The position numbers were made by a program, and so were the translations under genes. Below are positions 16,239 to 54,600 of a stretch of 64,000 bases of DNA, one piece after another. How positions within the stretch are numbered: position 1 is the first letter of the stretch; every line of letters starts with the position of its first letter. The notes below the pieces were generated by a model, which ran no database searches, was not told where the DNA came from, and saw nothing but the letters and a program-made list of their open reading frames with translations. Location of the stretch: assembly GCA_029964075.1 (NCBI GenBank), contig CM057147.1, positions 21,783,513 through 21,847,512 of the forward strand, given 5' to 3'. The DNA comes from Patiria pectinifera. Lineage: Eukaryota > Echinodermata > Asteroidea > Valvatida > Asterinidae.

Positions 16239-17126
16239 AAGGTACATATGATTATTTGCTTCTTGTGCCTTAACTTTCGTTTGAAGGAACAAAATTGCTA
16301 CAAATCTTAAAGGGAATATACAACATTTGCAAACATCGAAAAATAAAACTACCAAGTTTTTGCGAAATACCTTAATAGGATGTTGGTAAATGACAGTCTA
16401 AAGCATCCTGTAAAAGTATGGCACCTGGTATACTGTCATTTTCAAGAAAAGTGGTATTTTTGTATCAATTTCCAACACTGATCGGCTGATCAGCGTTGGA
16501 AACAACTGGCTTTTTTTCAAATACTGGCCCCAATTGACCATTGCACTTGTTTGCAATCAATTACAAACCTATGAACGGGTACGGGCCAGCTAGACTGGTT
16601 CCCTGACCTTACAATTCCCCAATGTATGTAAACTGCTCTGTTTCTTCTTATATGGAATCAGGGGACCAGACTACGGGAAAATGATCGTTTTTCTTGGTTT
16701 TTATAGCATTTTCGAACCCAAAACCTCCAAAAAGTCAGTGTAACTATATTTGCTTTATATTTCCAACCCCCCAATTCCATCCATTTCTGAAAATTACAGC
16801 AAAAGCAAATGATGTATATTCCCTTTAAGCAGGGTGCATGACAACTAACCTGTTGAAGGTTGATTGGATACATTTTAAGAAAACCGAGAAAATATATTCA
16901 CTTTTTTAGGGCGTCTTGTAACCGGATTCCATTGCAAATGCATAATGTGAAAATGTGCCACGGACACCTCTTTCGAAACCACCTCAGTTTTCATCCACAC
17001 GATACAATTTCAGCAGGAATATTTTCACAGGGTATTTCAGTGGTACCAGTCCTACCTTGACTTTGAGCAGAGTTTTTGTCATTAAATCAATGCTTCTCCA
17101 GGTAATTGCAAATGATTCACATAGCT
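16239..17126. mobile_element. TTAA-flanked MITE (piggyBac-like), outer member of a nested pair
   Basis: TTAA at 16235-16238 and at 17127-17130 flanks a sequence whose ends are inverted: AAGGTACATATGATTATTTG at the left and GCAAATGATTCACATAGCT at the right. A second copy without the inner insertion lies at 49807-50158. TTAA duplication is typical of piggyBac transposition; there is no transposase ORF. Confidence 0.65.
16311..16824. mobile_element. TTAA-flanked MITE (piggyBac-like), inserted in the outer MITE
   Basis: Starts AGGGAATATACAACATTTGC and ends in the near inverse GCAAATGATGTATATTCCCT, flanked by TTAA at 16307-16310 and 16825-16828. The empty site is preserved in the other outer-family copy: AATCTTAAGTAGGGTGC near 49878, against AATCTTAA[element]TTAAGCAGGGTGC here. 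This proves the ends and the TTAA duplication. A shorter sibling lies at 32633-32995. Confidence 0.85.
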
Positions 17127-17533
17127 TTAAGTTAACAGTGTTTCAATTTTAACTGTGAATGTACATTGGTCCAGTAAATAATACGTTCAGGTACTGTTGT
17201 CCACGAAATTTTCACAAAAAATTTGAGCCCTGCTAACGAACTCATTGAACACAGCACGATATGACAATAGCTTGTACTTGGACAAATAGTCTTTTTGATT
17301 TCAGTAAAACATTTTAAAAAAATTCATGTTTACATAATAAAATATGTATATTTCATTATTAATTTAGAGCACAAAATTGTATCATGACAAGTTACAATTT
17401 ATGAGTACTGATTTTAATAATGAGTTATTATTATTTTTTTTGAAATACAGCACTGTCTCGTTATTTTGTTACAATTTCCATATTATAATAATGCAATATA
17501 TTTTATAATGCCCATACTCAGTTTCCCTCTCGG

Positions 17534-17539
17534 TTTATT
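17534..17539 (-). promoter_or_regulatory. Polyadenylation signal AATAAA of the PhnD-like gene
   Basis: Minus-strand AATAAA lies 17 nt after the TAA stop (17558-17556), which implies a very short 3' UTR. The sequence alone does not show that it is used. Confidence 0.5.
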
Positions 17540-17555
17540 GGAACATTTGTTTTGT

Positions 17556-20500
17556 TTATTTTAACAAACCTTGGTACTGATCCAGTGTAACCGGCACAAA
17601 TTTGGATACCATGTATTGGTTCAGTTGAGCTTGCCATTTGGGGTCGAGATGCATGTTGAGAAGATACCTGGTGATAGATGTCTTGAGATCCTCTGAGGAA
17701 AAAAATGACCAAAGAAAATTCAAATCGAGACGAGCAAAATGGTGGTTAATTTAAACGCAGACTCAGAATGGCAGGCTATTGCAGGCCGTTTACAGTCTGA
17801 TACTAGCAAGCGTGTAGATTGTCAGCTGGCAAGCGCGAAGATTGTCAGATCTACCTATGACGCAGGGTTCAACATAATTCAAATATTTACAGGCGTACTA
17901 AATTATGAGGCCCCTGAATGTCCTCATGTACACGTGTCAGGTCAGATCTTCTGTTTAAATGGTGGTCTGACTGTCTGAGGTACTTCCCTCTTCCACACAA
18001 CAAATATGTTTACGCAAGGTATGTATCACTAATTTTATTCAGTATTCATAAGATGGAATTTTGCATTGGGGTGATGTAAATCAAATTAGGTTTTGCCCTT
18101 CACCGATGTATAAACACTGTATACTCAGTGTGTTACCTCCCGAGTGAAAGTTGGAAAAAATCACTTGGGTAGGACTCCAACCCATGACCTCCTGCTTTCT
18201 AGTGCAGATGTCTTACCACTCAACCACTGAGCTAAATGGGATCGGTTGGCTGGTTTGAATCTGATGTACATAGCAGCGGAGACCGCATTAACTATTCATA
18301 ACATGGAATTTTGCGTTGGGGTGATGTAGATCAAATGAGGCTTTGCCCTTTACCGTTGTTTTCCAAATTTCACTCAGGAGGTAACACACTCATACAGTGT
18401 TTATACGTCGGAAAGGGCAAAACCTAATTTGATTTGAGTTTTATTCAGCATGCAGAGTCCGTGTTCGACTCATGCGCGATGTTACATGGGTTCGAACCTC
18501 GACAGGGGACACGGTGCTGGTGTTCTTGGGCAAGATACATTACTACCATTGCCTCTCTCCATCCAGGAGTATTAATGAGTACCTGTGGGGGTGCAGACCA
18601 GACACTGCTGATTTCAAGCAGTTCTGCAGAAAATTGTTCTCATGGCATGCTGAACAGGGGTAATAAGTTTGAGCAATCCGAGAGTGTTGTATAAGAGTGC
18701 TGTATAAACACCACACTATGATCATCTAATATCTTAACATCAGCGCAAGGTGTTCTAGAGTTCCACCCAACCCTTTTCATTAAGGGGGAGTAGTTTGTCA
18801 CAGAGTCCACTGTACCTACCAGGTAATTCTGAGTTGACCACCCCAGGGTAGACAGGCAAAGGTCCCCATGTGGTGATGACATGAAGCTTGTCCCTCAGCT
18901 CAGGATGGGCCTTCATCTGTAAGGCTAGGGTGTTGGAGTCGATGCCTGTACCGTCTGCTGTCTTATCAAGGATCATCTGGATGGACTTCAGATGGGAACC
19001 TGGGCAGGATTTTTTAAAAAAAGTTTTGACGAGACGGAAATTATCCTTTTTTATATTGGATTTGTTTGCCCTTCGACGACATCTTTTGTAAACACTGTAC
19101 ACTCAGTGTTGTCTGAGGGCTTAGCTGGGGGGAACTTGAACTAATGAGTTGAGTCTTCACAGATGTTTGTCTTACCTGACTGGATAATTTGACCAAAGAA
19201 ACTGGCCTTGGTCTCTCCTATCTTTTCAAGTTCTCGATGGGTAATCCCGAATCCGCTCAGTGAATGGGCGTCGTTGTAGGCCCAAACAGATCCACGTAGG
19301 TCCTCAAACACTTTATATCTATCACTGAAACATAATCAATACAATTATGATTAGTATTGAATCATTGACATAGTATCAGTGGTGGGCCCCCCGGGGGGGG
19401 AGGGGGGGGAATGTCAAATATGTGGAAGACAGTGTTGTCGTGGAGACACTCACAAGCAGTGCTGTAGCACAGTCCATCACAATTCCATCAAAAGTAAATC
19501 ACACGTCCTGTCACAAGCCCAGTCACAGGTAACGATACCAAACAAATGGTTTTGCCATGTGCTGTTCCTTGGCTAGACTTTTAATGGGCTCCGTGTAATG
19601 GGCTCCGTGTGCACGTTTTTACCTCTTTTGAGAGCTCCTTGGATGGGACACACAGCGTGCGCGTACTGTACTGTTCGCGCGTGAAGTAGGCACGACTTCC
19701 TGAATGTGCAAAAGGAGACTAATCCCCGCCTCCAACAACTTTGGATTCATTCGAAATACGCAGTGGATGGATCGGGAACCAGTCTAGGGCACCCCAACTC
19801 TCCATTTCTGGCCGTTGATGGGGTACTTGTGCACAGAACCCATAGACTGAAAGACTTGACACAAGTCTATCACAAGCCATCCCACCCCTGACCAAGTCAC
19901 AAGTTATTCCAATGAACCTTGACAAAGGCATTCCTTTGTTACCGTTCATCCCGTGACTCGTGACCGGACTTCAAAACTGAAACATGATTTACTTGTGATA
20001 GACTCGATTTAATACTTGGGTGTCGTTATAGACGAAATATGAAGTTGGGGCCAACATTTTTAATATAAAAGGAAAACAGTTTCGTCTAAACCGGGTTTGT
20101 TGACTAGAATTCGTGATTATGTTCCCAAAACTGTATTTACTGTATGGGGAGGAAGGTACGCATATCTCACGACAATATTCTCAACAAGTGTCTGAAAAGA
20201 GCCGCACGGACAATCCTTAAATACACCTCCTTCAGCCCTTCATGGCATAAGTTTGCTGGACTAAATTGGGTTCCTTTTTCTGAAAGAGTTAAGTTAGAAA
20301 ATGCTTTTCTTGTTGCCACATGAATTTTGATTGAAAATCACCATATCGTAAGAATTTACCTACCAGTTGTCTTTGTTGACTACGACGTTTGTATAATACA
20401 CCGGGAGGTCACTGCTGTGCGAGTTGATATATGCAGGAGCAACACCGAGCAGTGCGGCCTTGCTGCTCGGCTTGCAGAACATGCGTTCAAATGTCGGTGC

Positions 20501-21177
20501 GCATACAAATCCTGAAGTTAAAGATGTTACAAAAATGTTACAAAACAATTGGAAAATCTACATTTGCGTTTACAGTATTGACTCCGTGCCCTGACAGCGA
20601 AAGGCACTTTTTATATAACTGACATATAGATCCTTGTCATTTGATTGGTGGAACTCATATCACGTGATATTCATTATTGCTCCCATTCACGCCAGGGCTC
20701 AAAAAGTCCCATTCGCCCATGGTGAATGGTATTTACTATTCAACAGGTAGGGTCGTCTTTGTTCCATGGCGCGGTATTTGTGTGCAAAATTGCATGCTGG
20801 TGTGAGCGTTGAGCGTTGCGCATATTGTTGCCAAGAGCCAGTAGCTACAGAGTTTTGTTCAAACATTTCATGAATGGGTGGTCTCTGGAAGAGAGAAATA
20901 CATCACAAGAAATACTTTTGATTCGTTTCGCATGTTTTTCTACACTCAAGAGCCAAGTCTGATCCTTGCCTATATCAGCATCCCCTGTTGTGAATGGGTC
21001 AATGCGGTCATCCGGGGGACCAGACCACCGGCTCTCGCACATGAGGTAGACATAGCAATTCAACTTCTCTTCCAAGTATTCCTTCAGTGTCTCAAAGTAC
21101 TCCAGAGGGATGCTGGGAACGAGGTAGGTGATAAGACGCAGCGTCCGTGGGCACTCTTGTTCTTGGTGACTGGTCAT
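17556..21177 (-). CDS. PhnD-like (phosphonate/phosphite-binding, periplasmic-binding-protein fold) protein, five exons
   Basis: Exons by frame and splice motifs: 21177-20970, 20511-20364, 19324-19176, 18999-18820, 17692-17556. They sum to 822 nt = 273 residues plus stop with every phase matching. Order of motifs: LRLITYLVPSIPLEYFETLK with LEEKLNCYVYLM (first beta-alpha-beta of the PhnD fold); SRWSGPPDDRI; GDADI|GFVCAPTFERM; VVVNKD; FEDLRGSVWAYNDAHSLSG; GSHLKSIQMILDKTADGTGI then DSNTLAL; PELRDKLHVITTWGPLPVYP; ITRYLLNMHLDPKWQ. SGS/GSH....I..V....AD..GIDS is the ligand-cleft signature of the PhnD/SsuA-like Phosphonate-bd family. In bacteria these proteins feed an ABC importer. Here there is no signal peptide and no permease gene nearby, so a soluble cytosolic role is inferred; the ligand is unknown. 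Canonical introns holding resident SINEs and a LINE scrap argue against bacterial contamination. Intron 1 appears to use a GC donor. 5' UTR exons are unknown. Confidence 0.85.
18043..18438 (-). mobile_element. tRNA-Ser-derived SINE, full copy with inverted 5' segment
   Basis: Lies in intron 4 of the PhnD-like gene, flanked by a 10-bp direct repeat TTTTATTCAG (18033-18042, 18439-18448). On the minus strand the tRNA-like head reads AGCTCAGTGGTTGAGTGG, then TGCACTAGAAAGCAG and GGGTTGGAGTCC. The CTAGAAA anticodon loop equals that of tRNA-Ser(AGA) but there is no long variable arm. The body ends CAAAATTCCATCTTATGAAT. At its right side (18290-18438) a tail segment is joined to an inverted body segment, giving fold-back ends. 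A pol III A box and B box are recognisable. Confidence 0.8.
18455..18718 (+). mobile_element. tRNA-derived SINE, second family (copy 1)
   Basis: Begins in a degenerate tRNA-like head (GGGTTCGAACCTCG B box). It continues with the conserved core TTGGGCAAGATACATTACTA and CCTCTCTCCATCCAGGAGTA, a CATGGCATGCTGAACAGGGG segment and a 3' AGAGTGCTGTATAAACACC tail resembling an L2 3' end. Full copies on the minus strand lie at 39979-40262 and 48215-48362. Confidence 0.75.
19583..19866 (-). repeat. Dispersed repeat family R1, copy 1 (inverted relative to the others)
   Basis: Shares GGGAACCAGTCTAGG, TCTCC.TTTCTGGCCGTTGA and GTACTTGTGC blocks with the copies at 35935-36272 and 46019-46286. No coding or tRNA-like part and no clear terminal repeats. 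It lies in intron 2 of the PhnD-like gene. Confidence 0.7.
20040..20322 (+). mobile_element. LINE ORF2 C-terminal scrap
   Basis: The plus-strand reading NILNKCLKRAARTILKYTS and WHKFAGLNWVPFSERVKLEN is the post-RT LQKRAARII....W..L.WLPF..R signature of Jockey/CR1-group LINEs. It is antisense in intron 2 of the PhnD-like gene and ends near the exon 2 donor side. Heavily truncated. Confidence 0.7.
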
Positions 21178-21429
21178 AGTGCAGATTTAGGGCTGTAGTT
21201 TATATCACCTTTAGGCAGAAAAAAAAACAAAGCAGGTGTAATAAAGTCATTGCATTTTATCACAAGTTATCTATCTAATATTGTGCTTATAATTATATAG
21301 CACTTTATTTTTCTAGACTCTCCATAGACATTGTACAGACATTTTGCTAGACTCTCCATAGTCAAGACTTTGTACAAATTTTTTTTACAATCTCCGACCA
21401 TCTGACCATACTAATTAGGATGGAACGTC

Positions 21430-24587: not shown

Positions 24588-26699
24588 TTAGGATTCGTTT
24601 TGTATGCAAGTGCTTTCCGGTTTATCTGCATACTTCATGATGACATTTGCCGCATCTAGTCTCTTCGCTTTCATCATAACCGAAGCCATCCACTCTAGGC
24701 TCTTAGCCTGGCGCTCAGCTTCTTCCAGGAGGGTCTCGGTGGGGTTATACGACGGCGTGTTCTTCAGAAGAGGAATGAGAGAGTCCATCTCCAAGGCGGA
24801 TGCCAGCACGCGCCAGTCGTTGCCTAAGGGGGCTAGGGGGTCCAGGAGTACGACCAGCTCCATGCAGAGTTCGTGGGGAATTGTTCGCTGGGTGGAGACA
24901 CAAAGGGGACCTGCAGATGAGGGGTGAATGTGTATCTGCATATTCTGGATGCAACTTTGTTGCTTGCCTTGGTCCTCGGGTTTACAAGTTACGTCTACGT
25001 TTTCACTGGTGTCAGAAGTGGGATGTGATGAACCCGAGGACGTGTTGGAGGATACAGAGGTGGTACTAGATTCTGTAGACGTTGAACGGAAGCTGTCTGA
25101 TCGGCTACTCGAGCTGCTTTCACTCTGAAACCGTCTCCTCTTTCCGTGCATACTTGGCGGGAACACGTGAATTACCGCCTGAGTGTTCCCGGTGCTCTTA
25201 TCAACTTGTCTTGCTGATACCGACCTCATGGATGCAAGCACTTTCAGTGTTGTCTTCTCTGATTCGTTATCCTCCCTGCCTCGCTGGTAGACTGCAAGTC
25301 TGATGTCGATGTCTCGCACGTGTTCGTTCTCATGTTTGAAGATGAAGGAGACATTGGGGCATTTTCCGTGCCACAAGCTCAAGTACGGCACCAGTTCCTG
25401 CCGATCGTCAAGTCGGTGCGACCAGCCCTCGTTGACGTGTTGGATCATGGCTACAATGTCCTGTCCGTCACCGTAAAACAGGAACTCCTTGCGGGGACAC
25501 AACTGCCTGAAGTGATTCTTGGCTTCGTTCTGGATGGCAAACTGCAAAGCGCACGGTGTGTTGTTCAGAAAGTAGACTCGGATCTCGTACCGACGTTTGG
25601 CTCGCATTCTGCCGCCGAACACGGCCAGCTGCATCCACTTCTTGGTAGCAGTTTTTCCTTCGGCCAGGCAGGTGTAGAGTGTGAAGTGAGACACCTGAAT
25701 CTGTACTTCGTTCGGCAAGAGATTGTACGGTTTGTTGCTGTCGTCTCTCTCGCAAACCTGCCGCCAATCCTTGGTCTGCATCAGGTGTGTCTCGCTGGCC
25801 ACCAAGGCCACATCCCTGCTGTCATACGCGCAGTGTTTGTAACTCAACACAGCGGGTTTGTTCAGTTTCAGTCCATGGGGTCCGCAGTGCACAACGGGGC
25901 TGATGATAGTCTCCTCGTCCGCCATGCCGGGAAAGTCTCCAAGATCCCAGTCAAGGATGAGGGAGATGAGCTCGGTACAGCCGGCCTCGATGGCATAGGG
26001 TGGGATTGTCAGGGAGATGCCCATGTCTGTCAGCACAAGGGTGTCACCAAGATGACTGACCTCACGGGAGATGAACACTACTAGTTTGCCGCCTACCATG
26101 ATGGTCTCGCTTTGCGTCATCCCGGCTCTGTGGAGCTCCTCAAGCCGATGATCTTCCTGGAAAACTTCTCCGGAACCCGCCCGCCTAATCGACACGGACG
26201 ACGAACGTGGTGGTAATCTGAGCTGTCCGTCGTAGATGTAGTTGTTATTCCCGGCTGTGGGATGGATCCTTTCACCGAACTCCCAGTTGTTAAAAGTACT
26301 TGGCTGTCCGGAGAATGGAATTGTATAAATAGGATCATCTGGCGTGGGAGTGAAGCACCCGTTGGAGCCAAACAAGGCAAAGTCCGTACCTTTCGACATT
26401 TTGCCACCTCTGGGCTGGGAATCACATATTATGACACCCTCAATGTCACTGCCCACGGCCGTGGAGGACTGGTTATCCCTCTCCCAGATTATCCTACAGG
26501 TCCTGCCGAACCATCTTCTGCATACACACTTCAGAACCAAGACGACAACAGCCAACACTAAGACAACACCGAGTATTGTGAATAATATGATCATTAATTC
26601 TCGGTCATTAAGTTCGCCGCCATCGCTAGGTTGATCATCTCCTGATCCCACATCATCGTCGTTGTCAATGTCACCAAAAAAATCACGGTGACGACCCAT
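24588..26699 (-). CDS. UNC5CL: UNC5C-like protein: membrane segment, ZU5, UPA and death domain, single exon
   Basis: The frame is open to 26816, but there is no ATG before 26699-26697. That ATG has a good context (AACAAGATGG), giving 703 residues. Order: short acidic N-terminus; membrane segment at about residues 36-57 (MIILFTILGVVLVLAVVVLV); ZU5 at about 220-335 (GDTLVLTDMGISLTIPPYAI, SPVVHCGPHGL); UPA at about 355-490; serine-rich linker at about 530-575; death domain at about 604-700 (LCMELVVLLDPLAPLGNDWR, SYNPTETLLEEAE). This is the UNC5CL architecture: no immunoglobulin or thrombospondin ectodomain, a signal-anchor helix and a cytosolic ZU5-UPA-DD. Vertebrate UNC5CL activates NF-kB/JNK through MyD88-pathway partners. 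The intron-less structure suggests retroposition or old intron loss. An UNC5 netrin receptor missing its ectodomain exons is less likely, because there is a stop upstream (26819-26817) and no acceptor was chosen. Confidence 0.88.
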   Translation of the reverse strand: MGRHRDFFGDIDNDDDVGSGDDQPSDGGELNDRELMIILFTILGVVLVLAVVVLVLKCVCRRWFGRTCRIIWERDNQSSTAVGSDIEGVIICDSQPRGGKMSKGTDFALFGSNGCFTPTPDDPIYTIPFSGQPSTFNNWEFGERIHPTAGNNNYIYDGQLRLPPRSSSVSIRRAGSGEVFQEDHRLEELHRAGMTQSETIMVGGKLVVFISREVSHLGDTLVLTDMGISLTIPPYAIEAGCTELISLILDWDLGDFPGMADEETIISPVVHCGPHGLKLNKPAVLSYKHCAYDSRDVALVASETHLMQTKDWRQVCERDDSNKPYNLLPNEVQIQVSHFTLYTCLAEGKTATKKWMQLAVFGGRMRAKRRYEIRVYFLNNTPCALQFAIQNEAKNHFRQLCPRKEFLFYGDGQDIVAMIQHVNEGWSHRLDDRQELVPYLSLWHGKCPNVSFIFKHENEHVRDIDIRLAVYQRGREDNESEKTTLKVLASMRSVSARQVDKSTGNTQAVIHVFPPSMHGKRRRFQSESSSSSRSDSFRSTSTESSTTSVSSNTSSGSSHPTSDTSENVDVTCKPEDQGKQQSCIQNMQIHIHPSSAGPLCVSTQRTIPHELCMELVVLLDPLAPLGNDWRVLASALEMDSLIPLLKNTPSYNPTETLLEEAERQAKSLEWMASVMMKAKRLDAANVIMKYADKPESTCIQNES

Positions 26700-26789
26700 C
26701 TTGTTTTCGATGGCGAGTGTTAACTTTGGGACCGTCCAGTCAATGAATCTTGATATGGACGGACGAGATATAAGGAATCCAGGCAAGTG

Positions 26790-27840
26790 AAGTAACCATA
26801 ACCAATGTCGTCTCTGTCAAACTAAACGCTGGCGTTGATCATAGGGACTAGTTCAATCGTTCACTTCTCTTTGGTAAAATTGAACTATTTTCCAACTTAT
26901 AGCGATGAGTCACCGTTGAACTTGTTCGTTAAGATTGTGAAGTACCTAACATGCCGGTGACAGTGAAAATACTACACGACCAAACTGCTACTGAAGTCGC
27001 CGTGGTAATGTACCATGCAATCATTGTCTACACAAGGTAGGCCTACTCACAGATCCGGGTCTAGATAACTGCGCACTAGAGGGTAAAGTTCGAAATATTA
27101 AAACTTAAAGCTGAGGTTTATGTTGCGTGTCTTGATTTTGAAGGGAAACAAATCTTCTCTGCGTAGAATGGCCCTCGTTACATGGGTGATAAAAAGCTAT
27201 GTGCGGAATCACGCTGGTTCATGCAAATTATAGGTTAACTATCTGTTGATGTTTATCAGTATTTCTAGATTCCACATCCCACGTCTAAAAAGCGGCCTTT
27301 ATTATAACCCTACTTCTCTTTCGGATGGCATGCATCTTTTCAGAACAATGCAAATTTGCCTGGGTGGTTTTCACGGAATAGAAAAAAATATGCCTTTAAT
27401 GTTTTCCCCTTTCCGTACTCTGGGTTTGTTTACCGTGATATAGCACGTTATCTTTTTATGTCAATCTCGTTTATTATCACCCCGTACGTGCATTTCGGCG
27501 CAAACCATTCGGTAGCCCACCCGGGTTCTTGGGGGGACGTCCCATTCGGTCCACGGGTTTAGAATTTGGACCTCTTATGTCTCTGTAAATATTCTTTGCC
27601 CCGTTTCGAAGATAACCCAAGTGCACCATGTGAGTCCACAGTGTTTTGGTTTCAAATCCCAGTCATACCGTTGTGGGTAATAATAAATAATTCGGGACTA
27701 ATCGAGGGACATCCCTATATTTGCTATCCATTGTCTGTCTCGTTACGTCACGGTTTAAGTCCGAAATAGCTCCTGTTTTGCTGCCAAATATAATTGCAAG
27801 TGACCATGGCAACCACACTGCTTCGACGAAAACAGGAATT
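26790..27840. other. Region upstream of the UNC5CL-like gene
   Basis: Likely 5' UTR and promoter of the minus-strand gene, but no TATA box or initiator can be fixed by eye. No other gene seen. Confidence 0.4.
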
Positions 27841-48600: not shown

Positions 48601-51600
48601 GTAGAAGAAAACATTGCAAACGTCCTTAACTAGTCTGGATATGAACCTTCAAGCTCAAGAAAAAGAAATAATTCATTGCTTTACCAACTGAATTCTTTCC
48701 CATTTTGTCAATGTCTTTGTTCAGGGGGCACTGGTCAGAACACATTTTAGAATGAAATTCCATTTTAGAATGACATTGGGAAGAGAAACGTTATATTTTT
48801 TCTGTCCTTTTATTGAATTCATATCAATCATTTCTTATGCAATTATTATATTTTTTTGTTAAATGTACAATCAGCGGCAAAACTAGAGTTAAATTGTAGA
48901 GGGGCACCTGGGGTACATCAATTTTTCAAGGGGGGGGGGGGCACTGAAGGCAAGTGATAGATTGCTTTTGTGCAATTCACGATTTCAAGATAGTTGCGCC
49001 ACTGTGTTGCCTGTTGCAAAACCTAATTTTTGGCAAGTGACATAACTGCAACACTCATGACATTAGCGACAGGTGTGGCATTAACATATGTACGTTAATG
49101 ACAACAATGACAGATGAGGCAATCAACAGTAAAAACTGGTCAGAATTGTGAAAGGCGTGACAATCACAAGTGACACTGATGACAACTGTGGAAGGTGAGA
49201 CAGTTAACATGACAACAGTGACAACATTTGTGACAATTAGCAGTAACACTAAAGCACAATAGTCACATAGACATGACAACAATAACCCTAATGACAACGG
49301 TCGCAGATGTGACATTTAAAACTTTGACAATGGTGACATTTGTGACAATAAACAGTAACACTAATCATTTTGGTAGCAGGTGCGACAACAATAACCCTTA
49401 TGACAATGATGACAGATGCGACAACAATAACCCTACTAATAACGGTGACAGATGTGACAATTTATACCATGACAATGGTGACAATTAACAACAATTACGA
49501 CAGTGACATTCGTGACAAATAACTTATAATGACCTTTTCTTCTCCCGGTTTGCTATTGACGTCCTTCTGTCCTTTCTCCTCCCCGGCCCTCTGGATGTTG
49601 TCCAATGACTCCGGCAGGCTGTTAACGGACACCGAATCCACCTCGTCTCTCCCTAAACTGTTGATGGACAGCCTTGTGAAGGACAGAAAGTCATAGGCCG
49701 GGGAGCTCTGGTGGTGGTGAAACTCCAGCAGGGACGAGAGATTTCTACACAATGAGATCAAAAAAAGAATCACATATTAGATGTGTGATACATACATGTG
49801 CATTAAAGGTATGTACGATCATTTGCTTTTTGAGCATTTTTTTTTGGTTTGAAGCAACAAAATCGTTTAAAATCTTAAGTAGGGTGCTCAGTATAACAAT
49901 TAACCTGTTAAAGTTTCAGTTCAGTGGATACTAAACGTTTTGAGAAAACAGAGAAAACATGTGCAAAAACTGGATTTTGCTGCTCACGTATAAAAAAAGT
50001 GTGCCCGTGGGCAGCCATTTTGAAACCACCTTCAATGTTAGTTTCTCTAAAACGATACCATTTCCAAAATTTGATACCAGTTCTGTCTTTACTTTGAGCA
50101 AAATTTGTGTTCGTAAGTGGTAATTTTTCGGGGTAACTTCAAATATTCCTACGTGGTTTTAACTGTTCGCAGTGATTTGTGCAACAATTAACTGGAATTC
50201 TCAATGGTTTATACACCAAAATGTCCATTTTTAATATTGTAAGCATTGGATTTACATTAAAAAGTTTTCTAACACAATAGAAAAAATCAATATAAATTGT
50301 AACAAAATCTTTGTTCGTGTGTCATTAGTCAGAAAAATAATTTAAAGTGCACAACTTCCCAATATTGAATGGCTTAAGCTTGTGCAACACCATCTTTTAA
50401 GTTAACAGGCTCTCTGTATCAGCTCTTTTATATTTGAAAGTAAAAAGAATAAGAATCTATAGTGATCCGTACATGAGTGTTTGTGAGAGTTTGGAGATGC
50501 CTTGTTGTATGGCAAAGCAGTTCAGCAAGTGTCGGCTGATGTCAGGCAGCTTACCATCCCAGGGACCTTTGGCTTCCTGCAACATGCAAAAAAAGAGAGT
50601 TAAATTACACTCAACTACAAATACCTCATTGTATGCAAGACACATGAAAGAAACTGTACAGTCTCTTTCAAATACACATGGTTGCGGTGGTCTTTTTCGG
50701 ACAATTTTGGTTATTTTGTCGCTGGATTTATATCCAGTTATATTTGGTCTACGGACTCCAACTTGTTGGAGAATGTAACCACACTACCCAGCTCGCTGTT
50801 CAAGTAAAACATGACCCTGTATTTGCAAAAGGACTTGGACCTGAGAGCCAGTCTCAACAAGAACTGTTAACAAGGACAGTTTATATCGATTCATATGGCT
50901 AGTGATACATACGCTGATATATTTTTGGCCTTCGTATCTGTAGACGTTCGAAGCCAACTGATGATAGAATGTCAGCATGGAGGAGTTTCCTGCCTTGCAG
51001 TAATCCTAAAACCAATGGAAAATAAAGAGAGACTTCATATGAACCAGTATATACACATATAGACTGGCAATTCGGTCACTAGTGCACGTCTATGTGCCCC
51101 GAGGGACTGTGAGTGATTCGAAGGCCGAGGGAAATAGGATCCTCTTCTCAGGTCACTCACAGGCCTGAGGGAGACATAGACATGCACTAGTGACCGAATT
51201 ATGCCAGTCCATATGTGTTTTATAACTCGCCTCTGTTCAAGATAATAATAATAATAATAATAATAATAATAGTGGCATCTTATTAAGCGCAAACAGGTCC
51301 ATCACTAGGTGACGCTCATGGCGCTATACAAAGAGTAAGCACAAACTACAAAACTTATAAATGACAAAATTATAAATGACAAAACTACAAATTATAAATG
51401 CTAGGTTCAAGACATATGAAGTGCAAGGTGCAAGCCGAAGAGGAGATTAGAATGTGAACAGATAGGTTTTGAGTTCTTGTTTGAAGGAGATCAAAGAGGG
51501 AGCATGACGGATAGAGAGGGGTAGACTGTTCCAGAGAGTGGGGCCTGCGTGAGAGAAGCTTTGGTCACCCCAAGAGTGTCGGGATCGGGGAACTTGAAGA

Positions 51601-54600
51601 AGGGAGGAGTCTGATGATCGAAGCCTGCGTGGGGGGTGGTATGCCTGTATTGAGTTTTGTAAGTAGACTGGTGAGGAGCCATGGACTGCGTGGTAGACCA
51701 ACAACAGAACTTTGAAGGTGATGCGTTTGTCAACGGGCAGCCAGTGAAGAGACTGAAGGACAGGTGTTATGTGACATGCTTTCTTGGTGAGAGTGACTAG
51801 TCTGGCTGCGGAATTTTGGAGGCGTTGCAGTTTATTTAGCTGTTTATTTAGCAGAACAAGGGCTGTGATGTTTCCATTATCCATTTGTTGAAGTACGTTG
51901 TCCGTTAAATTTGTGAGAAGTGTTTCTACGCTATGATTCGAACGGTATGCTGATTGATTGCTGTCAAGTAGCGAATGTTCCTGCAAATGATCTGAGAGAC
52001 GAGAAAATGCCACACGTTCCAAGACTTTGGAGAGATATGGAAGGTTGGATATTGGACGGTAACTCTGCAAGGAATTTGTGTCCATACCAGGTTTCTTTAA
52101 TGTTGGTCGAACAATCGCTCTCTTTAGGACTTCAGGAACGACTCCAGTATCCAAGCTCACATTGATGATGTTAGTGATGACTGGAGTAATGGCAGACATA
52201 CATTTTTTTAGAAGAGAGGTAGGGATCGGGTCCAACTCACATGACTTTGCTGGTGACCTTGCCATGATGTTACGAACTTCATCTGTAGATGCAGGAGCAA
52301 GAGTGTCTAAGACTGCACGAGTTTTACGTGACGAAGATGTTTGATTGATGGCTGGCAGACTGGCACGAATAGATTCTATCTTGCTGGTGAAGAAGTTGCT
52401 GAATCGAGCAGCTAGATCTTCAGCGAAAACATGTGTTGGAAGAGGGGAAGGCTGCTTTCTGTTCAAAAGATCGCTTGCAACTCTGAACAGTCTTTTCGTG
52501 TCACCTGAGCAGTCGTTAATTCGTTTCAAGTTGTACCCTGTTTTTGCAGCACGAACTAACGATTGGACTCGCTGACATTGTTGGCGATACAACTGATGAT
52601 GTATTTCAAGCTTGGAAGATCGCCACTTCCTCTCAAGCTGCCTACGAAGAAGTTTTCCATCTGCTATTTTCTGGGTGTACCATTGAGTATTTGGTCGAAT
52701 TTTCACTGAACGTTGTTGGACAGGAGCATGTGTGTTCAGAGTAGCTATCAGAATGGAGTTGTAGCTGCCGACAGCCAGATCTGCGTTGCTCACAGTGCAT
52801 TTCTCTGTGAATGACGCTTCATTCAAATCCTCGATGAAGCAAGCAGGTTGTATAGACTGAATGTTTCGTGACACAACAGACTTTCGGGCAGTTCGTAGAC
52901 TTGGAGTATGCAGGTTGCAAGTAAGGGCGGAGTGATCAGAAATACCACGAATTATGTCAATGTCAGACAGTCCTGTGGGGTCGATCCCTTTCCGTGAAAT
53001 AAGCAGGTCTAGAGTGTGGCCACGTATATGGGTTGGCTGACGGATGTGTTGCTCAAGGCCATATGCACTTAGAACATCACAGAAACCTCTGGCCTCAGGT
53101 GAAGTTGTATCAACGTGGATGTTGAAATCTCCGGAAATAATCAAACTGGCCTTCTTGAAAAGGTAGTTGTCCAGTACATCCGAGAACTCATTTAGAAAAT
53201 CTTTGAAAGGAGTTGATGATCCTGGAGGTCTGTAGACAATGGCCAGGTGTACAGCGTTTGAGTTCTGGATGATATCCATCTGTATCAGTTCAAAGGAACT
53301 GATATTATCAAGGGCTGGATGGATTTGTACAGTTAAATCACTCCGATATAGAAAGGCGACACCGCCACCTCGTTTACCTGTCCTTGGTATGTGCTTGAAC
53401 GTGTATCCTCCAGGGTTGAGTTCTGCAATTACAGCATCATCGTCAGCGGATAGCCATGTCTCGCAGACACCAACAATATCAAATTTATTGTCGATAACAA
53501 AGTCAACGAAGGCGTTGGTTTTAATTTTCAGAGATCTTGCATTGAGCATACAGAAGGAGGTAGTATGTTCTGCTTTCGCTGTCTTGTTTGCAGTAAGCTG
53601 CACTAGGTTACTATGGCAACAGTTCGCAGATCCATTGTGTAGATAGTCCGGATGATATTCACCAGTGGAAAAAGAAGTTTGTCTTCCATAACCAATAATT
53701 ACTGGAATCAAACTTTGGGGAGTCGGCCTCCTTCTGTGAATCCCTGCTTTGCAACCTCTACGAGATCGTCTGCGTAGAGTTGTGCGTTTTCGAGGGTCAT
53801 CTGTCTTTGTGACGTCCACTGGTGCATGAATCAAGCATGGCGTCCGTCTGATGTTTAAATATGTGATTGTCCTGCATATCTGTGGCTGGAGTGGACATGT
53901 GGTGTAGAAATCAGGCCCTTGGTACAGGGAATAGAGCTCTGTAGGTTGGTACTTTAATTGAAGACAGAATGCCTGGGCAGAAGTCATCATTACTGCCCCT
54001 TGCTGACAATTGGCTAATCCATGTAGGTGTTGAGGCACAATGCATTCCCCATGAGGATTAGGTGCAGGGCCATTGTAAGTGCTTGACTTCTTGATCTCTA
54101 TTGTTGGTGGTGGTCCATTGTAGGTGCTTGTCTTCTTGATCGCTATTGTTGGTGATCGATGTTGTGTGAAAGCTGGAGCGTGGGCTGCTGTACTGATGAT
54201 CAAAGTACACAGCAATGTCCAGAAAAAGATCCCAAATATTCTCCAAAATGGGATCATATCACAGTAAGTTTGGCGAACCATGCTGATCAGCAGTTCCTAA
54301 TCTGTATCTTGGTGTAAAACTCATGATAGAAATTGCAGAAGAATAGGTCGATCAAAGTCAGAGATCGGAGCCTGAAGTGGAGCTGCCAAATAGTAGCGCT
54401 GCCAACTATTGCATCTGGGCTTCTGGGCTTTTCAGAGTTTTATAATTCAACTTCAACAATTAACCCATAAGCAATGCAACTGTGAGCAATTCAACAATTA
54501 AAGGAATGGTTTTAGTTTCCCGAGATTCAGTTGTTGAGTTTTTGATTTTTTTTTTTTAGAGGGCACTGTAACCAGTCAGAAATTTAGAGTATAGTGCCCA

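Follow-up and report, generated by a model that had tools for sequence, protein, structure and literature searches.

Why would a starfish chromosome carry an intron-bearing gene for a protein of a bacterial binding-protein family, and what might its product do there? The question is raised by a 64,000-nucleotide stretch of the Patiria pectinifera genome (the window; 21.78–21.85 Mb of contig CM057147.1, here C19, which is 34.6 Mb long in an assembly of 613.5 Mb and 1020 contigs), in which five minus-strand exons (21177–17556) join in frame to encode 273 residues followed by a stop codon. The exons, coordinates and product length proposed in a first-pass annotation, which was made from the sequence alone, were all reproduced by the computed splice, and the proposed membership in the phosphonate-binding family PF12974 was borne out. 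With moderate confidence, the locus is read here as an assimilated nuclear gene whose product is a soluble, two-lobed "Venus flytrap" protein, probably of the cytosol, that would bind an oxyanion; the clade into which it falls consists of short bacterial PF12974 proteins.

The best stretch of the PF12974 match spans residues 102–268 (E = 2.2e-27) and, at 96.5 bits against a gathering cut-off of 27, is not a chance similarity. Three other models stayed below their cut-offs: TIGR03431, the PhnD equivalog (78.9 bits; cut-off 261.1), TIGR01098, which covers phosphate/phosphite/phosphonate substrate-binding proteins (85.1 bits; cut-off 112.05), and a putative selenate family of NCBIfam (E = 9.8e-7). 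With the animal protein alone as the query, 43 matches were obtained among 72,556 plasmids, the best three of which were cyanobacterial (E = 2e-26 to 2e-21), with the next at 2e-11 among the best 40 of the 43; some phyla, above all Pseudomonadota, were covered through these plasmids only. The same query matched 36 of 292 cyanobacterial genomes at 1e-5, 13 of them at 1e-20 or better (best 2.2e-32), and 21 of the 47 genomes of one class, apparently of the Chloroflexota, at 1e-12 or better (best 5.1e-42). In the phylum to which an Anaerolineae genome belongs (Chloroflexota), a profile search gave matches at 1e-10 in 69 of 251 genomes. A single-protein scan of prokaryote contigs returned 19 stretches, none of which was confirmed as a relative, and viral contigs searched with the single protein and with an alignment yielded no confirmed relative. 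For comparison of loci, a set of 77 was collected with patterns from an alignment containing three cyanobacterial rows, a choice that biases its composition of 75 cyanobacterial loci, one Anaerolineae and one Clostridiaceae.

Two trees, both built without eukaryotic relatives, place the animal protein within this bacterial diversity. In the first (30 rows) it lies in a clade apart from the AioX-type and PhnD proteins (96/89), joining five Chloroflexota rows (96/86). In the second (32 rows), which dispenses with the earlier rows for Polaromonas, Erwinia, Rhizobium and Clostridiaceae, the animal protein groups with 13 rows each from Chloroflexota and Cyanobacteriota at a support of 98/97, while three AioX-type sensors form a separate clade (99/95) and the two PhnD rows group at 100/99. 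As judged from sequence, the gene belongs with the short Chloroflexota/Cyanobacteriota PF12974 clade and not with the PhnD import systems.

The absence of a signal peptide, also claimed at the outset, is supported. An in-frame TAA begins 12 nucleotides 5′ of the ATG with no AG in between, so that no upstream exon could supply a leader there, and the most hydrophobic 19-residue stretch of the first 40 residues averages 0.82, which indicates no leader. The lack of a signal and of a transporter had been treated as a peculiarity of the animal gene, a view that is not supported, since among the closest bacterial relatives found there are many in which a signal peptide would not fit either. Of the 77 loci, 75 have matches that begin no later than residue 16, and 47 of these have fewer than 15 open codons upstream, too few to accommodate a signal peptide; for Chloroflexota, N-termini were viewed at plus-strand loci only. 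Since many members of the clade are built in this way, the missing signal, and with it the missing transporter, was probably inherited.

The binding site was compared with that of the arsenic sensor AioX, whose pocket consists of Tyr88, Cys106, Tyr131, Ser161, Ser163, His192 and Asp210 (PMC5908839). In a hidden Markov model alignment, Cys106, Tyr131, Ser161, Ser163, His192 and Asp210 align with Cys73, Tyr108, Ser140, Ser142, His171 and Asp189 of the animal protein, so that six of the seven pocket residues are matched, and these six are identical in all 26 rows from Chloroflexota and Cyanobacteriota. In the two PhnD rows, the Cys position is occupied by Gly and the Asp position by Asn or Ala. 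The pocket resembles those of bacterial arsenic/phosphate sensors more than those of phosphonate importers. An AlphaFold2 model of a Calothrix relative (L040; mean predicted local distance difference test score 95.2) was used for a Foldseek search, in which the first 11 hits were AioX/ArrX structures (E = 3.8e-24 to 1.4e-21), followed by PtxB and PhnD.

Taken together, these features suggest how the protein might work. Cys73, Tyr108, Ser140, Ser142, His171 and Asp189 would grip a small oxyanion between the two lobes, the leading guesses being phosphate, arsenate/arsenite or a related anion. Closure could alter the protein surface in a manner read by a soluble partner; alternatively, the protein may simply buffer its ligand. 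The cytosolic location, the class of ligand and the role in signalling or buffering are what we infer from the foregoing.

Several points weigh against deriving an oxyanion-binding protein from this clade. The exact sister of the animal protein is unsupported, the lean toward Chloroflexota having fallen to 85/60 and 80/0 with more rows, and the animal branch is long, at 2.46 changes per column. Longer upstream open frames are present at 28 of the 75 bacterial loci, and the Clostridiaceae locus, which groups with PhnD in the first tree, has by eye a lipoprotein-like leader. In the pocket, AioX Tyr88 is replaced, by Trp51 in the animal protein within a poorly aligned loop; of the 13 rows in each bacterial group, 12 cyanobacterial ones have Asp in this column and 12 Chloroflexota ones have a gap. 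Moreover, AioX and ArrX have the same pocket residues and different anions (PMC5908839), so that pocket identity does not fix the ligand. Finally, the predicted fold of the animal protein is read from its modelled Calothrix relative.

The most serious alternative, which we regard as somewhat less probable, is that the gene is old in eukaryotes and was not transferred into this animal lineage: it would have descended vertically, or have been acquired a single time early in eukaryotic history, and most animals would since have lost it, its function being the same. The long branch, the identity of only 27–38% to the compared Chloroflexota loci and the presence of four introns would all suit such a history, and PF12974 proteins occur in fungi and in other invertebrates. 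On the other side, the animal protein nests among bacterial rows, which in trees lacking eukaryotic rows is no real test.

A more specific version of the oxyanion-binding reading arises from the neighbourhood of the cyanobacterial genes. At 58 of the 75 cyanobacterial loci (58 of the 77 overall), a gene for a tetratricopeptide-repeat (TPR) protein lies tail-to-tail downstream on the opposite strand; the gap to the PF12974 gene is at most 2.2 kb, with a slight overlap at the other extreme. The encoded protein has about 420 residues (e.g. L040:4772–6007, minus strand; loci L036–L111), and Pfam detects TPR repeats only; its sequence is, we presume, like that of animal TTC38. The 19 loci without this neighbour include some represented by short stretches (e.g. 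L057 and L089). Genes named by eye as SsuD-like and SsuA-like are found nearby in 12 and 10 of the 77 loci, respectively. At 18 Chloroflexota loci, a number that counts some places twice, no TPR gene was found within about 1.5 kb, and one cyanobacterial TPR query, run without a positive control, had no match in the animal genome. That the animal took a cytosolic arsenic/phosphate oxyanion sensor from a soluble bacterial clade, and that the TPR pair forms an oxyanion-sensing module conserved in bacteria and animals, appears unlikely as a whole. The convergent neighbour is a lead to the function of these proteins in bacteria too.

A scavenger or sensor of phosphonate or 2-aminoethylphosphonate, a ligand class suggested in the first-pass annotation, is improbable. 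The family name points that way, and the two Ser, the His and the Tyr that are common to the PhnD and AioX pockets are retained. In Escherichia coli PhnD, however, the amino end of 2-aminoethylphosphonate is gripped by Glu177 and Asp205, which correspond to Tyr212 and Pro240 of AioX (PMC5908839) and to Asn191 and Pro220 of the animal protein. The two acidic residues are therefore absent, while Cys73 and Asp189 are of the AioX type, and the TIGR03431 score falls far short of its cut-off.

Another reading, on which we place equally little weight, is that the binding-protein fold now serves as an enzyme or a carrier of a cofactor, as in yeast THI5, and not as a binder that signals. Cys73, His171 and Asp189 are invariant across the 26 clade rows and no partner is known, both of which would fit. 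The same residues, however, bind anions in AioX (PMC5908839).

The first-pass annotation had missed that the 3′ half of the gene recurs many times in the genome. When the genome was searched by tblastn with the spliced protein, at least 64 matches were obtained, on C19, C6 and C20, of which 62 correspond to exons 3–5 (three being the window gene itself) and the other two to exons 1 and 2 of the window gene. Queried alone, exons 1 and 2 match the window gene only, genome-wide, and a DNA query of positions 20250–21300 found, besides its own location, the intron-1 repeat (at least 62 matches, with 40 of 2255 candidates scored). In 20 copies that were fetched, homology continues through the introns and the 3′ flank; it stops at 16825–16827 in 10 of them and extends to 20248, short of exon 2, in three. 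A tblastn search of the 20 fetched stretches for exons 1 and 2 found neither, the L030 stretch covering no more than about 1.3 kb upstream. In 16 of the 20 copies there are stop codons, indels, shortened exons or missing acceptors; L025 and L026 retain exon 3 only, and L018 and L019 have exons 3–5 open with intact splice sites. A functional multigene family was rejected for these matches, as they lack exons 1 and 2 and are mostly broken.

An intronless receptor gene on the opposite strand adjoins three of the fragments (L011, L012 and L017). Of these receptor genes, the two that were scanned gave PF00001 matches; DNA similarity also takes in others, and the receptor gene has at least 103 matches at E values of 1e-20 or lower, 101 of the 1044 candidates having been scored. 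As the fragments lie beside duplicated receptor genes, they are probably passengers of receptor-gene duplication. The intronless receptor genes form a large rhodopsin-like family and stand in tandem arrays (L017:5763–7004 and L012:4298–5797, both on the plus strand).

Selection on the intact gene was gauged against the duplicated fragments, which serve as a nearly neutral reference. The ratio of non-synonymous to synonymous change (Ka/Ks) between the window gene and a copy was 0.19–1.09 in 19 comparisons and 0.3–0.7 in 12 of these; among closely related copies it was 0.57–1.87 where defined, with very few changes. Coding divergence was lower than noncoding divergence in 19 of the 20 copies (L023 being the exception, 0.072 versus 0.070) and was about half of it or less in 16. 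Seven codons of the window gene differ from every compared copy; four of them are silent, one of these being a replacement in a single copy. These figures weakly support constraint on the intact gene and near-neutral evolution of the fragments. It is very unlikely that the window gene is itself decaying and non-functional: 18 of the 20 fetched 3′-half copies are broken or partial in the fetched stretch, but the window copy alone retains exons 1 and 2, has all of its splice sites and no stop, and keeps a poly(A)-signal match as well as all six residues of the pocket. Bacterial contamination of the assembly, raised by the first-pass annotation as what would undo it, has practically no chance of being correct, being ruled out by five exons with host repeats within the introns on a 34.6-Mb contig and contradicted by related fragments on three contigs, and the searches made gave no near-identical bacterial match.

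The assimilation of the gene into an animal chromosome, as first proposed, is supported by its introns and by the host repeats that these contain: introns 2 and 4 carry repeats present elsewhere in the window, and intron 1 holds a dispersed repeat. The further claim that the introns are canonical applies to introns 2–4 but not to intron 1, which has a GC donor (Table 1). This site fuses DADI to GFVC, and the corresponding bacterial strand (DLAFICG) runs uninterrupted. A GT donor was tried for intron 1 and rejected; it would give 281 residues with eight extra inside the conserved strand, and the GC site is favoured for this reason. Exon 4 is the sole stretch of the genome picked up by a PF12974 scan. 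Many genomic copies of the intron-1 repeat, which is about 290 bp long, are adjoined by a 37–40-bp match in the opposite orientation, an arrangement that suggests an inverted-repeat element.

Table 1. Features of the PF12974 gene, in window coordinates
Feature	Position	Strand	Details
Exon 1	20970–21177	minus	208 nucleotides; residues 1–69 and one base of codon 70; starts with ATG
Intron 1	20512–20969	minus	GC-AG; 458 nucleotides; dispersed repeat of about 290 bp at about 20611–20903
Exon 2	20364–20511	minus	148 nucleotides; pocket Cys73 and Tyr108
Intron 2	19325–20363	minus	GT-AG; 1039 nucleotides; repeats common to about 35.96–36.24 kb and 45.4–46.3 kb of the window
Exon 3	19176–19324	minus	149 nucleotides; pocket Ser140 and Ser142 (SLSG loop)
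Intron 3	19000–19175	minus	GT-AG; 176 nucleotides
Exon 4	18820–18999	minus	180 nucleotides; pocket His171 and Asp189
Intron 4	17693–18819	minus	GT-AG; 1127 nucleotides; repeats common to several places in the window
Exon 5	17556–17692	minus	137 nucleotides, including the stop codon
AATAAA poly(A)-signal match	17534–17539	minus	starts 17 nucleotides past the stop codon
Part of the gene duplicated elsewhere	16825–20248	minus	exons 3–5, introns and 3′ flank

The absence of a neighbouring transporter, another initial claim, holds for the five frames of at least 170 residues in the window, none of which encodes one; no domain-by-domain search of the window was made, and a multi-exon transporter could have been missed. 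Nor do these five frames include a phnC or phnE partner; neither the window nor the genome was searched by domain for these. A 742-residue frame at 24588–26816 on the minus strand encodes ZU5 and UPA domains and a Death match just below its cut-off, a layout that we take to be animal, and, by eye, a possible transmembrane stretch. A 949-residue frame at 51447–54296, also on the minus strand, appears by eye to be an endonuclease/reverse-transcriptase element of the long interspersed nuclear element type. Overall, the observation made in the first-pass annotation is confirmed and its interpretation is partly supported.

New here are the cyanobacterial TPR pairing and the recurrence of exons 3–5, but not of exons 1 and 2, as mostly broken fragments, many of which lie next to a tandem G-protein-coupled receptor gene. 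In the extracts of the literature that were searched, no account was found of such a binding protein in animals; the short PF12974 clade is likewise unnamed in the extracts found on such proteins, no search having been aimed at the clade alone. Two reports (PMC3640398 and PMC3499245) concern, in the portions consulted, enzymes that make or convert phosphonates and not binding proteins. Cytosolic bacterial proteins matched by binding-protein Pfam profiles, which, as here, have a binding-protein domain without export, are noted as a class in a study of 49 bacterial strains (PMC9602780); neither the clade nor animals are discussed in the part of that study consulted.

Of known proteins, the short PF12974 proteins of Chloroflexota (e.g. 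L127 and L129) and Cyanobacteriota (e.g. L036 and L040) are like the animal protein in length, clade and the six pocket residues, and many members of their clade share its lack of room for a signal peptide; the animal gene differs from them in its introns and in its modest identity to the Chloroflexota loci. One annotated cyanobacterial case (L033) is listed as a PhnD/SsuA/transferrin family substrate-binding protein. The PhnD and PtxB importers have PF12974 and the pocket S-x-S, His and Tyr in common with the animal protein, which, in contrast, has no leader and no phn partners seen among the five frames and which differs from PhnD in having Cys for Gly and Asp for Asn and in lacking the two acidic residues that would hold an amino group. 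The periplasmic arsenic-oxyanion sensors AioX, ArrX and ArxX (PMC5908839) are the closest solved structures, by sequence for the animal protein and by modelled fold for its bacterial relative, and six of their pocket residues have counterparts in the animal protein. Unlike them, it has no leader and no sensor-kinase operon, has Tyr88 replaced and falls outside the AioX-type clade. That an animal may own a soluble anion-binding flytrap with a pocket of the AioX/ArrX type is a concrete and testable claim.

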